NCBI GenBank assembly: GCA_024349765.1
Contig: AP026073.1
Span: 4,898,001 to 4,962,000, forward strand
DNA from: Streptomyces nigrescens
GTDB taxonomy: Bacteria > Actinomycetota > Actinomycetes > Streptomycetales > Streptomycetaceae
Direction of reading: 5' to 3'
Length of the DNA: 64,000 bases
The notes under the pieces are model-generated. The model worked only from the letters and a program-made list of their open reading frames with translations. It searched no databases and was not told where the DNA came from. Below are positions 32,340 through 36,568 of the stretch, in pieces (positions within the stretch are counted from its first letter, which is position 1; the number at the start of each line of letters is the position of its first letter). The translations under genes were made by a program, and so were the position numbers.

Positions 32340-33575
32340 TTACCAGGCGACGGGCAGCGAAATCAGGCCACGCGAACGCAGGGCCGGACGGTGCCGCAGA
32401 TCCCCTCGCGGGACGGCCAGCCGCAGCTCGGGGAAGCGGGCGAGCAGCGCCTCCAGCGCGGTGACGGTCTCCATCCGGGCGAGCGGCGCGCCGAGGCAGT
32501 AGTGGATGCCGTGCCCCAGCGCGAGGTGCCCGGAGAGCTCCCGGCCCCGGTCCAGCCGGTCCGGGTCGGGGAAGCGGGCCGGGTCGCGGTTCGCGGACGC
32601 GATCGCCAGCAGCACACTCTCGCCCGCCGGGATCCGCACCCCGCCGATCTCCACGTCCTCCTTGGGGAACCGGCGGATGGCGATCGGGGACGGTCCGTCG
32701 TAGCGGAGGAACTCCTCGACGGCCGCCGGCAGTTCGGCCGGATTCCGCTGCAACTCCTGAAGCTGTTCGGGGTGGTCGAGCAGGGTGAGCACGGCGTTGC
32801 CGATGAGGTGGACGGTGTTCTCGTACCCGGCGAAGAGGATGAGGAAGGCGAGCGAGGTCAGCTCGTCCTCGGTGAGCCGGTCGCCGCCCCCTCCGCCGCC
32901 GCTGCCGTCCGTGTCGTCCCGGACCGCGACCAGGTCGGAGAGCAAATCGTCGCCCGGCTCGGCGCGCTTCGCCGCGATCAGCGCGGTGTAGAACTCCAGC
33001 ATCGCGCCGATCGCCTGCCGCATCAGCTCCGGCCGGGTCGGGTCCGGGGTGATCAGCGCGTCGGACCAGGCCAGGAAGTCCCGGCGGTCCTGGTGAGGGA
33101 CGCCGAGCAGATCGCAGATCACGGTGATGGGCAGCGGTCCCGCGTAGTCGGCGATCAGGTCCGCCGGGCCGCCGCGCCGCTCCATCGCGTCCAGCAGCTC
33201 CTCCGCGACCTGCCGTACGGGCGTCCGCAGCGCGTCCACCCGGCCGGGGGTGAACGCCTTGCCCACCAGGCGGCGGATGCGGGTGTGGTCCGGCGGGTCC
33301 ATGTTGAGGAGGTTGGCGTCGAGGGCGGGCGGCAGGGCGAAGCCGCGGAAGCCGCCGGGCGCCGCGTGCCGCTTGTCCAGGGAGAGCCGCGGATCGGCGA
33401 GGGCCCGGCGGACGTCGTCGTAGCGGGTGACCAGCCAGGCGGGCTGCCCGTCGGCACCGGTGATCCGGTGCGCCGGTCCCGCCTCGCGCAGTGCGGCGTA
33501 GGCGGCGTGCGGGTCGTCGAGCAGGAGCGTGACGTCGATGGGCGCGTCGGGGGCGGTCTCGGCGGTGTTCTGCAT
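32340..33575 (-). CDS. Cytochrome P450 (CYP105/107-like class I)
   Basis: A 411-residue soluble bacterial P450. The I-helix oxygen-activation motif is LFAGYENTVH (about 243-252), the K-helix ExxR lies in EEFLRYDG (about 288) and the heme loop is LGHGIHYCLGAPLAR (about 345-360), with Leu replacing the usual first Phe. NMDPPDHTRIRRLVGKAF (about 89) is the typical C-helix region. It needs ferredoxin and ferredoxin reductase, and none is encoded nearby. The substrate is unknown, and no biosynthetic cluster surrounds it. The start is ATG 33575; TACAGT six bases upstream and no ribosome binding site predict a leaderless mRNA. Confidence 0.92.
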   Translation of the reverse strand: MQNTAETAPDAPIDVTLLLDDPHAAYAALREAGPAHRITGADGQPAWLVTRYDDVRRALADPRLSLDKRHAAPGGFRGFALPPALDANLLNMDPPDHTRIRRLVGKAFTPGRVDALRTPVRQVAEELLDAMERRGGPADLIADYAGPLPITVICDLLGVPHQDRRDFLAWSDALITPDPTRPELMRQAIGAMLEFYTALIAAKRAEPGDDLLSDLVAVRDDTDGSGGGGGGDRLTEDELTSLAFLILFAGYENTVHLIGNAVLTLLDHPEQLQELQRNPAELPAAVEEFLRYDGPSPIAIRRFPKEDVEIGGVRIPAGESVLLAIASANRDPARFPDPDRLDRGRELSGHLALGHGIHYCLGAPLARMETVTALEALLARFPELRLAVPRGDLRHRPALRSRGLISLPVAW

Positions 33576-33724: not shown

Positions 33725-33754
33725 GCGGCACCGGTCCGCACGGACCGGTGCCGC
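33725..33754 (-). terminator. Terminator of the XRE-zincin-membrane cassette
   Basis: GCGGCACCGGTCC (33725-33737) pairs perfectly with GGACCGGTGCCGC (33742-33754) around a four-base loop, 67 bp past the stop of the membrane protein gene. It separates this cassette from the P450 gene. Confidence 0.6.
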
Positions 33755-33820
33755 CTCCTTCGTGCCGGGCGGCCCGGACCCCCGTGCCGGGCCACCCCGT
33801 CTCTGTGCCGCCGCGCCGCC

Positions 33821-35041
33821 TCAGCCGCGCGCCGCCGCGCTGCGCTGCCGGAGCTCGGTCAGCACGGTCTCGATGAGCGGTGAGTGGTAGACGTCCGCGA
33901 CCAGCGCCAAGTGCTCGTATTCGGCGCCGAGTTCGGCCGGTTCGCTGCTGCTCGCGACCACCACGCTGTCGGCGCCGTGTACCGGGACGTGGCCCACCGC
34001 GCGGTTCTCCAGGCCCCGGCGGAGCGCGGCGGCCTCGGCGACGGCGGCCAGTTGCCGGTCGTCGAGGGCGACCGCGCGGGCGCGTTCCCGGGCGATGTCG
34101 ACCGCGTCGGACTCCACATGGCGGCGGATCCCGCGCTGGACGTCCCGTATCTCCGCCATCTGCCGGTTGGCCCGCCACTCCAGATCGGCGAACGGCCAGC
34201 GCACGGACCACGCCGAGTTCTCCATCGTGACCTCGGGGGTCTCGGCCGTGACGGTCCGCCAGAGCGGGGACAGCCGGCGCAGCCGCCGCCAGGCGGCGAC
34301 CCGGGGCCCGGCGGCCGGCAGCGCGAACCCGGCCAGCACCAGGATCGCCGCGACCGAGGCGCTCAGCGGTGCCACCCCGTTGGAGAGCCAGAGGGCGGGG
34401 TGGCCGGCCCAGGAGAGGACGAAGCCGATGACTTTGCAGCCGCAGTAGACCAGGCCGAGCCAGCAGCCGGCGGCCAGCACCCGCAGCCCGCGCGCGAGAT
34501 GCGTACCGCCGAGCCGGGCGGCGTAGCGGGGACAGAGCGTCCCCAGGCCGGCCAGGCTCGATCCGAAGATGGCCAGATACAGCACCAGGAAGAGCATGAC
34601 GCCCGGCGAGTCGGTGTAGGCCGTGCTGAAGTCGCGGGGGTGCTCGACGGCGTCCGGCCGGCCGACCGCGAACCCGGCGATCGCCACCGCCCACAGCGCC
34701 GCGACTCCGCCGACCGCGGCCCGTGCCCTGGCCCGGGCGCGGGCCCTGGCCGCCGGGCCCTCGCCCGCCGTCCAGCGCAGCAGCAGGACCAGCGCGCCCG
34801 CCGCGAAGACCACCACGGAGGAGTACAGGAAGACCATGGCCAGGTTGGCCACGCCGACCAGCCGGTCGAAGGCGCGGTAGAGGCTGGGCGCGGAGAACAG
34901 GAAGACCGTCGCCACCCCGCCGGTCATCAGACAGGCCAGCCCGAGGTCGGTGTTGCTGCGGTCGCGGAACCAGGCGACGGACTTGTAGCCGACGATCACC
35001 CAGGCGGCCAGCCCGAACGACAGGTAGATGACGTCAAACAC
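33821..35041 (-). CDS. MAB_1171c-type integral membrane protein (putative transporter)
   Basis: A 406-residue protein. The first half has about seven hydrophobic spans (about 5-27, 33-53, 65-90, 107-127, 148-170, 187-210 and 220-245). The cytoplasmic C-terminal half (about 250-400) is rich in charged helices, for example RWPFADLEWRANRQMAEIRD, and ends with AEYEHLALVADVYHSPLIET. This matches the MAB_1171c/DUF6545 family, annotated as putative transporters without experimental proof. The GTG at 35041 overlaps the zincin stop by eight bases, so it is translated with the XRE and zincin genes. It may be the membrane receptor or effector of that cassette. Confidence 0.85.
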   Translation of the reverse strand: MFDVIYLSFGLAAWVIVGYKSVAWFRDRSNTDLGLACLMTGGVATVFLFSAPSLYRAFDRLVGVANLAMVFLYSSVVVFAAGALVLLLRWTAGEGPAARARARARARAAVGGVAALWAVAIAGFAVGRPDAVEHPRDFSTAYTDSPGVMLFLVLYLAIFGSSLAGLGTLCPRYAARLGGTHLARGLRVLAAGCWLGLVYCGCKVIGFVLSWAGHPALWLSNGVAPLSASVAAILVLAGFALPAAGPRVAAWRRLRRLSPLWRTVTAETPEVTMENSAWSVRWPFADLEWRANRQMAEIRDVQRGIRRHVESDAVDIARERARAVALDDRQLAAVAEAAALRRGLENRAVGHVPVHGADSVVVASSSEPAELGAEYEHLALVADVYHSPLIETVLTELRQRSAAARG

Positions 35042-35753
35042 GCGGTCCCCCGTCCTCGCCCCCGGCCGGCACCGCGCCGTCGCCGTCGGCCCGCTCGCCC
35101 CGGTCTGCCGTACCCTCGCGCTCCCGGCGTACGTGCTGCAGCGCGGGCCCGAGCGCCGCCGCGAGCTCGGCGGCCTGTCCCGCCAGCGGGAGTTCGCCCT
35201 CCGCGGCCGAGGGCGCGACCCGTTCCATCAGCAGCGTGCCGAGCACCTCGGTCTCCCGCTCGGCGAGGTTGTCGTAGCCGTGGTGCCGGGCGAAGCCCAT
35301 GGTCAGGCCCATCCGGCGCATGGCGGTGGCGACGTCGACCGAGGGGGTCCAGATCTTCAGCGCGTCCTCGGTGACGGCCGGGTCCTGACCGTGCCCCAGC
35401 AGGAGGTGGCTCAGCTCGTGCAGCACGATGTGCGCCTGGTGCCAGGGCGAGGTGCGCAGCTCGTAGAAGACCCAGTAGCCGTCGTCGGTGACGGCCGTCA
35501 TGCCCGAGACCACGCCGCCCAGGCTCATCGGCACCAGATGCACGGGCCGCTCCACCCGGGCCGCGACGACATCGCACATCCCGCGCAGATCGGTGACGGC
35601 GGGCAGTGCGAGCTCCTTGATGAGCCGCTTGCACCGCCTGCGTATCTGCCCCACTCGCATGCTCGTCCCGTCCTCGTGTCCGGCCTGCCGCCAGGTGGCG
35701 AAGAGCTGGCCGCGTTCAACGGTGCCCACCGTGTCACTCACCGCGCCGGTCAC
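35034..35753 (-). CDS. HExxH zinc peptidase-like protein (ImmA/IrrE-related) of the XRE cassette
   Basis: A 239-residue protein with a zincin motif HELSHLLLGH (about 132-141), in which two His and Glu are placed for zinc binding and catalysis. Preceding residues (VVSGMTAVTDDGYWVFYEL) form a beta-rich edge as in ImmA/IrrE peptidases, which cleave XRE-type repressors. The N-terminal part has a basic helix (RVGQIRRRCKRLIKELALP), and the tail after about 205 is disordered. It overlaps both neighbours (20 bp with the XRE gene, 8 bp with the membrane gene). Cleavage of the adjacent regulator is a reasonable but untested idea. Confidence 0.85.
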   Translation of the reverse strand: MTGAVSDTVGTVERGQLFATWRQAGHEDGTSMRVGQIRRRCKRLIKELALPAVTDLRGMCDVVAARVERPVHLVPMSLGGVVSGMTAVTDDGYWVFYELRTSPWHQAHIVLHELSHLLLGHGQDPAVTEDALKIWTPSVDVATAMRRMGLTMGFARHHGYDNLAERETEVLGTLLMERVAPSAAEGELPLAGQAAELAAALGPALQHVRREREGTADRGERADGDGAVPAGGEDGGPRV

Positions 35754-36222
35754 CGCCCTGCTCCGGCGGGTCGGCCGGCAGGTTCATCTGCTGCCGGAAC
35801 TGCGAGATGATCGTGGTCAGGCTGTCCTGCACCTCCGGCGGCAGCCCGACGGAGCGCAGCGCGATGGCCCGCACCCGCTGGTCCCGCATCGCGGCGAGGA
35901 ACCGGACCTCCTCCTCCACCCGCGCGGCCTGCGGCTGGGAGAGGTCACCGAGGAGGTAACCCACCGGTACCGCAAAGAACTTGGCCAGCGCGCGCAGCAG
36001 CTCCGGACTCGGATTCGTCCGCTTGCCGTTGCGCAGCATCGATAAGTACTGCTCGGTGACCCGGACCCCGCCGTACTCCTTCGTCCCGGCGCTGATCTCC
36101 TCGGCGACGAAGGCGTTGGTGTACGGGGCGCCGGGCGGATGCATGTTGGCGAAGAGGTGGTTGAGCCGCTCCGCGAGCGTGTTGCCCGCCCCCTTGGACC
36201 GGCCGTCGCCCCCCATGGCCAT
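35734..36222 (-). CDS. XRE family HTH regulator with a TTA codon
   Basis: A 162-residue regulator with a Cro/CI-type HTH (about 15-95; VTEQYLSMLRNGKRTNPSPE is the recognition part, PVGYLLGD the end of the domain). A C-terminal helical extension (about 100-150) includes VRAIALRSVGLPPEVQDSL. Codon 60 (36043-36045) is TTA, rare in this genome and read by the bldA tRNA, so translation of the cassette may depend on developmental stage. The start is ATG 36222 with GGGGGGA upstream. A palindrome CCAACGGTTGG about 40 bp upstream could be its own operator. Confidence 0.9.
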   Translation of the reverse strand: MAMGGDGRSKGAGNTLAERLNHLFANMHPPGAPYTNAFVAEEISAGTKEYGGVRVTEQYLSMLRNGKRTNPSPELLRALAKFFAVPVGYLLGDLSQPQAARVEEEVRFLAAMRDQRVRAIALRSVGLPPEVQDSLTTIISQFRQQMNLPADPPEQGGDRRGE

Positions 36223-36259
36223 GCCTACCGTCCCCCCATCGACAGCACCGACGAACGTC

Positions 36260-36270
36260 CCAACGGTTGG
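36260..36270. promoter_or_regulatory. Candidate operator of the XRE cassette
   Basis: CCAACGGTTGG, a perfect palindrome with a single central base, lies 38 bp upstream of the XRE start codon. Autoregulatory binding is inferred from position. Confidence 0.4.
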
Positions 36271-36440
36271 TTAAGCCGCCGGGCTCGCAGCACTTATCCT
36301 GTCATGCGAAGAACGCGCCGCACCAGTCCCCTTACGGACAGTGAGGACGCTCGGGCTTAACCGGGAGTTGAGTGACGGATCAAGCGTCCGGAGGACAGGA
36401 CGACGGAACCGCCCGGCCCCGCCCTGTTCCCGGGCAACGC

Positions 36441-36491: not shown

Positions 36492-36568
<77 letters not shown>

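Follow-up and report, generated by a model that had tools for sequence, protein, structure and literature searches.

What do a transcriptional regulator, a zinc protease and a membrane protein do together when their genes overlap? The question is raised by a 64,000-nucleotide stretch of Streptomyces nigrescens DNA (assembly GCA_024349765.1, contig AP026073.1, positions 4,898,001 to 4,962,000; "the window" in what follows, with coordinates counted from its first letter), in which a gene for an XRE-family regulator is followed by one for an IrrE/CapP-like zincin and one for a protein of the MAB_1171c family (MAB protein below). An earlier note on this DNA had proposed a signalling system in which the membrane protein senses a signal, the zincin removes or modifies the XRE protein and the whole unit is gated by bldA. 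On balance, and with a good deal of reserve, we favour a signalling cassette in which an EspR-type autorepressor is inactivated by a protease under the control of a receptor. The cassette would be of the repressor-protease kind with an added membrane protein, and its kinship to EspR, its second operator and its fourth gene were all absent from the earlier note. In the open-licence PubMed Central (PMC) literature, as far as the accessible parts of the papers go, we found no account of this cassette or of a link between it and EspR.

Three genes that are kept together

The XRE gene (35734..36222), the zincin gene (35034..35753) and the MAB gene (33821..35041) are intact and adjacent, tightly packed head to tail on the minus strand, and they are no chance grouping. 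The overlaps described earlier are present in the window, one of 8 bp between the zincin and MAB genes and one of 20 bp between the XRE and zincin genes, the latter hinging on the choice of a GTG as the zincin start. Across 13 orthologous cassettes, the window included, the 8-bp overlap recurs in 11 (the remaining two have -11 and -44), and the XRE/zincin distance ranges from -32 to +55 bp.

Among 150 sampled genomes of the genus there were matches to MAB_1171c in 125, to a window-like zincin in 115 and to a window-like XRE protein in 79, with up to 11 MAB_1171c copies per genome. Neighbourhoods were compared for 80 loci from the match lists, 20 zincin-centred loci and six plasmid loci, with genes called by a codon-based script. 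We counted 90 MAB genes of at least 300 amino acids, called in 109 loci (the window, L005-L007, L071-L170 and L199-L203), a sample that leans to high-scoring MAB matches, being the best of a longer list, and that leaves aside short, broken or uncalled copies (L007, L122, L140, L143 and one piece in L141). A gene for a HExxH protease adjoins MAB in all 90 cases; a zincin was called within 3.5 kb in 86, and six-frame search found it in the other four, in one case as a partial gene where the contig ends. An EspR-type XRE gene lies within 3.5 kb of 75 of the 90. Thus the survey of gene order that had been suggested for this locus finds the families co-occurring widely, and the single system of regulator, protease and polytopic protein put forward in the earlier note has indeed been kept together over many genomes.

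The proteins also appear to have diverged together. Over 72 loci their pairwise distances correlate strongly (MAB-zincin r 0.905, MAB-XRE 0.814, zincin-XRE 0.808), and for distant pairs only the values are 0.706, 0.486 and 0.509, respectively, the largest r among 200 permutations being 0.121. Judging from these protein distances, the three genes share a history. Their order is less constant: XRE, zincin and MAB follow one another directly in 50 of 83 cases, and other layouts include zincin, MAB and amidohydrolase genes with a convergent XRE gene and, in another branch, MAB, XRE and zincin genes in that order. That the partners are kept despite rearrangement is a stronger argument for a shared job than one frozen operon would be.

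Closer to the window, an XRE protein at least 79% identical to the window's is found in 14 of the 150 genomes (its own included), 13 of which have the whole row including a cytochrome P450 gene, with the XRE gene alone in the remaining one (L081). In named genomes, one scan located this XRE gene at 80 loci (64-100% identity, nearly all Streptomyces). The zincin comes next in 71 of them, with MAB after it in 69 and both MAB and P450 in 61; of the shorter rows, four end at contig ends. A search of the phylum gave matches in at least 22 of 296 genomes, a count that may be low as at most six candidates per genome were scored. The 20 zincin-centred loci (L151-L170), picked from the lower part of the zincin match list, one per genome, contain a zincin-XRE pair without MAB in 14 and with MAB in five, and one is cut off.

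The genome of the window itself holds three further MAB_1171c matches: a second XRE-zincin-MAB-P450 row (L005), a zincin-MAB-methyltransferase row (L006) and a short MAB-like copy beside an XRE gene and near a site-specific integrase gene (L007, 5509-6835). Several smaller observations concern the neighbourhoods. The 14 pairs without MAB (e.g. L161:5326-6540) occupy one syntenic place near phosphopantetheinyl-transferase-like and metallophosphatase-like genes, where L164, L165 and L169 still hold MAB, as if it had been lost from a core locus. In the branch of L086, L088, L091 and L095 a TetR-type gene precedes MAB and the XRE-zincin pair follows it, with a large ketosynthase-like gene next door in L086, L088 and L095. 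Tandem pairs of MAB_1171c genes are seen at L177:257-2577 and L194:291-2688.

The protease

The zincin carries the motif HELSHLLLGH, and its residues H112, E113, H116 and E165, invariant in all 71 aligned zincins, likely form the active site. Its structure model matches the fold of IrrE/PprI and of CapP, and with this fold and an intact predicted active site the earlier assignment to the ImmA/IrrE-type proteases holds. Sequence profiles are less telling: the Pfam family Peptidase_M78 stays below its cut-off (13.5 bits against 22, E 0.064), and a zincin profile compared with PDB sequences gave only weak M48-type matches (best E 0.02). Proteases of the IrrE/PprI and CapP kind act on XRE repressors, with DNA damage and single-stranded DNA known to trigger PprI and CapP (PMC10904395; this and the other PMC papers are cited for the parts accessible to us). 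Pairs of XRE and COG2856 genes were described in 2009 as a frequent unit whose protease most likely cleaves the XRE repressor (PMC2701414). Like DdrO-PprI, ImmR-ImmA and CapH-CapP, the cassette has a HExxH protease adjoining an XRE regulator, and it shares with DdrO-PprI and CapH-CapP the zincin fold, its XRE profile weakly matching CapH and DdrO; what sets it apart from all three is a seven-helix membrane protein of its own and, in many cases, an enzyme.

A relative of EspR

The XRE protein has the Pfam domain HTH_3 and matches PDB chains of EspR (Rv3849), the nucleoid-associated ESX-1 regulator of Mycobacterium tuberculosis, with E 3.4e-20 over residues 11-145 of 162. A profile built from 38 XRE relatives matches EspR at 4e-45, CapH at 2.7e-7 and DdrO at 0.003. 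By these matches the protein is a nearly full-length EspR relative, including the C-terminal dimerisation part.

This kinship extends to gene neighbourhoods. In the phylum search, two genomes of another genus, which we take to be Mycobacterium because the match of its EspR to the M. tuberculosis chain reaches E 1e-67, had a MAB gene beside an EspR-type gene. EspR is present in 59 of 60 sampled genomes of that genus; zincin and MAB genes stand beside espR, convergent with it, in 33 of the 59, neither does in 26, and one without the other is never seen (60 loci of 59 genomes, G438 appearing twice as L301 and L343, with the contig-cut L342 counted under "neither"). Altogether MAB was found in 40 of the 60 genomes, with 53 matches, and an EspR-family gene lies within 3 kb of 52 of these, against about 0.002 per match expected by chance; the one match without such a neighbour is a fragment. 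Thus the zincin-MAB pair is a regular companion of EspR-type regulators. In M. tuberculosis, rv3848 is reported directly upstream of espR (PMC3315491), which is compatible with a locus without the pair. In one genome (L341, G453), which has both zincin and MAB, the espR match falls into two parts separated by about 1.4 kb, as though the gene had been interrupted.

Two predicted operators around a likely promoter

The earlier note had seen one operator-like palindrome. The palindrome is real; it exists, however, in two copies. Alignment of the upstream regions of 15 loci reveals a dyad, CTYAAC-N5-GTTGRG in the window's clade, present as a proximal predicted operator (CTTAACCAACCGTTGGG, 36259..36275, minus strand) and a distal one in the opposite orientation (CTTAACCGGGAGTTGAG, 36356..36372, plus strand), 97 bp apart, which flank a promoter-like block (GGACTGGTGC ... 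TGACAGGAT, 36296..36329, minus strand) that, from the alignment columns, probably serves as the XRE promoter. With a looser pattern, at least one operator is found in 78 of the 80 named orthologs and two in 74 of the 80 upstream regions, 51 of these 74 having the promoter block pair. The spacing is 96-100 bp in 62 of the 74, 106-111 bp in eight, and 122, 138, 171 and 171 bp in the others, so that the helical phase stays the same (at 10.5 bp the vector length is 0.80, a value that near-copies help to raise).

The strict motif, which was derived from these sites, has exactly two exact matches in the 9.33-Mb genome, both at the cassette. Allowing one mismatch gives 51 matches genome-wide versus 85 for a reversed control, so there is no sign of a wider regulon, and that candidate was dropped, with the proviso that real binding may be looser. 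Among 12 relatives the strict motif matches twice at the locus in G137, G064 and G090 and once in G035 and G086; the other seven have no match there, and their proximal sites mostly read GTGAG. A few strict matches elsewhere occur in the genomes of G090, G086, G058 and G069.

EspR itself acts as dimers of dimers that link sites far apart, and it reduces its own expression; its binding sites number in the hundreds and have a TTTGC-type motif, and its promoter is enclosed by two EspR-binding regions, for which a repression loop has been suggested (PMC3315491). The plan of a promoter between two sites thus seems to recur at the Streptomyces cassette promoter, as far as the upstream alignment can tell, with a different motif. 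The differences are that EspR has hundreds of sites against two exact strict-motif sites in the window's genome, and that the window's regulator is accompanied by a protease and a membrane protein. A separate observation concerns XRE orthologs without zincin or MAB (L265, L267, L268, L274 and L279), which are followed by heme- or iron-transporter-like genes of the ATP-binding-cassette type; all but one of the five retain one operator or more.

The membrane protein

The MAB protein scores 148.4 bits against NF042915 (curated cut-off 100) and has a C-terminal DUF6545 domain (E 3.6e-22, 79.7 bits, cut-off 24.4). Its structure model (mean confidence, pLDDT, 91.7) is a seven-helix bundle with the shape of a G-protein-coupled receptor (GPCR) and a soluble helical tail, the amino end being placed outside and the carboxy end inside. 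All 50 matches listed by VIA-align for this model are GPCRs or designed GPCR-like folds, a comparison limited by the fact that helical bundles reach high Z through arrangement alone. A MAB profile run against PDB sequences found no GPCR and one weak row (E 0.066). We therefore do not file the protein as a GPCR, the modelled likeness being one of shape. Nevertheless, a seven-helix model of this kind makes a receptor likelier than a transporter, and it bears out the earlier description of the protein as polytopic and receptor-like.

The fourth gene

The unit extends beyond the span of 33725..36270 that had first been given for it, since a gene for a cytochrome P450 follows (32340..33575, minus strand; Pfam p450, 2.8e-27), the usual fourth gene of the window's branch. 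Over the 90 cassettes, a co-directional gene lies within 400 bp in 68, often with a 4-bp overlap with MAB, and these genes fall into 17 clusters: P450 (24), amidohydrolase (11), an unnamed protein of about 198 amino acids (eight), amidase (five), aldo-keto reductase (four), a 310-amino-acid protein (three), a flavin-dependent (FAD) oxidoreductase (three) and 10 singles. Pfam names the representatives of five of the seven larger clusters, and the seven singles scanned were methyltransferase, NUDIX, gamma-glutamyltranspeptidase, AMP-binding, acyl-CoA dehydrogenase, esterase-like and thiamine-binding. Plasmid annotations add a PAP2 phosphatase (Amycolatopsis) and a polysaccharide deacetylase. The class of the fourth gene follows the MAB tree, with 22 changes versus a shuffled mean of 56.6 (none of 200 shuffles as low; near-copies help). 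This tie between enzyme class and receptor branch suggests an enzyme that may act on the ligand of that receptor. Apart from this, the polysaccharide-deacetylase cassette (L203, on a Streptomyces sp. NBC_01431 plasmid) has a class II lanthipeptide cluster in its vicinity.

A proposed signalling cassette and its alternatives

We propose the following course of events. The seven-helix MAB protein would sense a small molecule, and its cytoplasmic DUF6545 domain would control the IrrE-like zinc protease, which would cut or otherwise inactivate the EspR-family repressor. That repressor, bound to two operators about 97 bp apart, would otherwise hold the cassette promoter in a loop. With the repressor gone, regulator, protease and receptor would be expressed, together in many branches with an enzyme encoded in the same direction (a P450 in the window), whose probable role is to produce, modify or remove the signal. 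Several findings argue for this chain: the protease adjoining all 90 MAB genes, the shared history and the retention of partners through different gene orders; the intact HExxH...E residues in a fold whose IrrE/PprI and CapP members act on XRE repressors; two phased operators around a promoter, the plan reported for espR; the 52 of 53 MAB matches near an EspR-family gene; and the seven-helix model. The losses, moreover, are nested (no counted MAB without a zincin, zincin-XRE pairs without MAB, XRE alone), as a chain of receptor, protease and repressor would predict.

Other findings weigh against it. An EspR-type XRE gene is missing within 3.5 kb at 15 of the 90 MAB-zincin loci, and for 11 of these none was found in the entire fetched stretch; conversely, the XRE gene stands alone in nine of the 80 named loci, which, together with the 26 of 59 espR loci without the pair, implies that the regulator does not need the protease. 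The L007 locus has an XRE gene and a short MAB-like gene with no called zincin. Neither structure model is significant in Foldseek on its own (zincin, E 0.009; MAB, best E 0.17). The 14 pairs without MAB look like one conserved locus, and are therefore not independent. Finally, the conserved XRE residues Y89 and R123 also occur in M. tuberculosis EspR, so that conservation is unusable as a guide to a cleavage site and none can be named.

One may also consider a different target for the protease. The receptor would still control the zincin, which would cut another protein, for instance the receptor itself, and the XRE protein would only autoregulate the operon. The 11 MAB-zincin loci in which no XRE gene was found would fit this, as would the lack of a visible cleavage site in the regulator and the lone XRE genes, eight of nine of which keep an operator. 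On the other hand, one would then hardly expect the shared history of zincin and XRE protein (r 0.808), nor that the two stay paired without MAB in 14 of the 20 zincin-centred loci, and the nearest fold relatives of the zincin act on XRE repressors (PMC10904395). We regard this alternative as unlikely, though the most serious of those considered.

Less probable still is that the MAB protein is a transporter or linked to transport, with XRE and zincin regulating MAB and the enzyme in response to the transported compound. The family bears the name "putative transporter", and a MAB_1171c mutant of M. abscessus makes about half the biofilm, from which its authors, who call the protein a transporter, inferred export of matrix parts (PMC8707978). 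Against this stand the seven helices with their soluble helical tail and the GPCR-type matches, all 50 of those listed by VIA-align, although a shared shape is compatible with transport, as well as the lack of any transporter domain among Pfam matches up to E 0.1.

A module of the toxin-antitoxin type, with the zincin as toxin and the XRE protein as antitoxin, is very improbable: three plasmid records annotate the zincin as "toxin" (in record names only) and a 2009 study counted XRE-COG2856 pairs among toxin-antitoxin-like systems (PMC2701414), but the XRE gene is lost or distant in 15 of 90 loci that keep the zincin, which is unexpected if it alone restrains a toxin, the unit is chromosomal, syntenic and kept in 71 of 80 orthologs, and the membrane protein and enzyme have no place in such a module. 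A role in anti-phage defence was rejected, as the only PADLOC matches were weak helix-turn-helix ones to the XRE protein (best capH, 3e-5), zincin and MAB having none at E 0.1; nor did the MAB protein have a match among phage records at E 0.001.

Returning to a receptor that acts on an EspR-type repressor through the protease, the likenesses and differences to other systems are instructive. In BlaR1/MecR1-BlaI, too, a membrane sensor, a zinc protease and a repressor belong to one pathway. Like the cassette, the conservons of Streptomyces (cvn operons) are signalling operons present in multiple copies, and a P450 gene is often their last. They encode a histidine-kinase-like protein and a GTPase, whereas no gene for either was seen in the cassette by Pfam and NF-family matches.

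A further-reaching version, which we put forward tentatively and would not expect to hold in all its parts, takes the cassette for a new class of bacterial transmembrane signalling: a GPCR-shaped receptor would act on an EspR-type repressor that loops DNA, with a separate zinc protease as the intermediary, and the enzyme, matched to the ligand, would be exchangeable. The EspR line would then have lost receptor and protease and become a free nucleoid protein. For a large family that now goes by the name "putative transporter", the cassette would supply a function open to testing, and it suggests that soil bacteria of the Streptomyces group have an undescribed route from outside signal to DNA. 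EspR, which has been studied as a virulence regulator acting alone, falls in a family often found with a membrane receptor and a protease, company that bears on its origin and control. If the fourth enzymes do act on receptor ligands, the cassettes would point to unknown bacterial signal molecules.

Other features of the locus

The gap of 245 bp between the MAB and P450 genes contains a 14-bp perfect inverted repeat (33725..33754). The terminator that the earlier note had placed here stands as an inverted repeat and falls as an intrinsic terminator, which we ruled out because the hairpin lacks a T-tract and a terminator scan found none. A hairpin of at least 12 matched pairs begins 55-74 nt past the MAB stop in 11 of 14 orthologs, and the P450 gene of the window's branch, set off by it, may be expressed apart; no operator precedes the P450 gene in 14 such gaps by the pattern CTYAAC-N5-GK.

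A TTA codon is indeed present at codon 60 of the XRE gene (36043..36045, minus strand). It recurs in none of 14 other XRE orthologs, and among the 80 named XRE genes any TTA is found in six, at codon 60 in a single one, from S. chattanoogensis (L212). Since the codon is not conserved, the proposed gating of the unit by bldA is rejected as a part of the system; judged by codon conservation, control by bldA is a chance feature of this locus. A gene for tRNA-Pro (ggg; 36492..36568, minus strand) lies immediately upstream of the XRE promoter region, on the same strand as the cassette.

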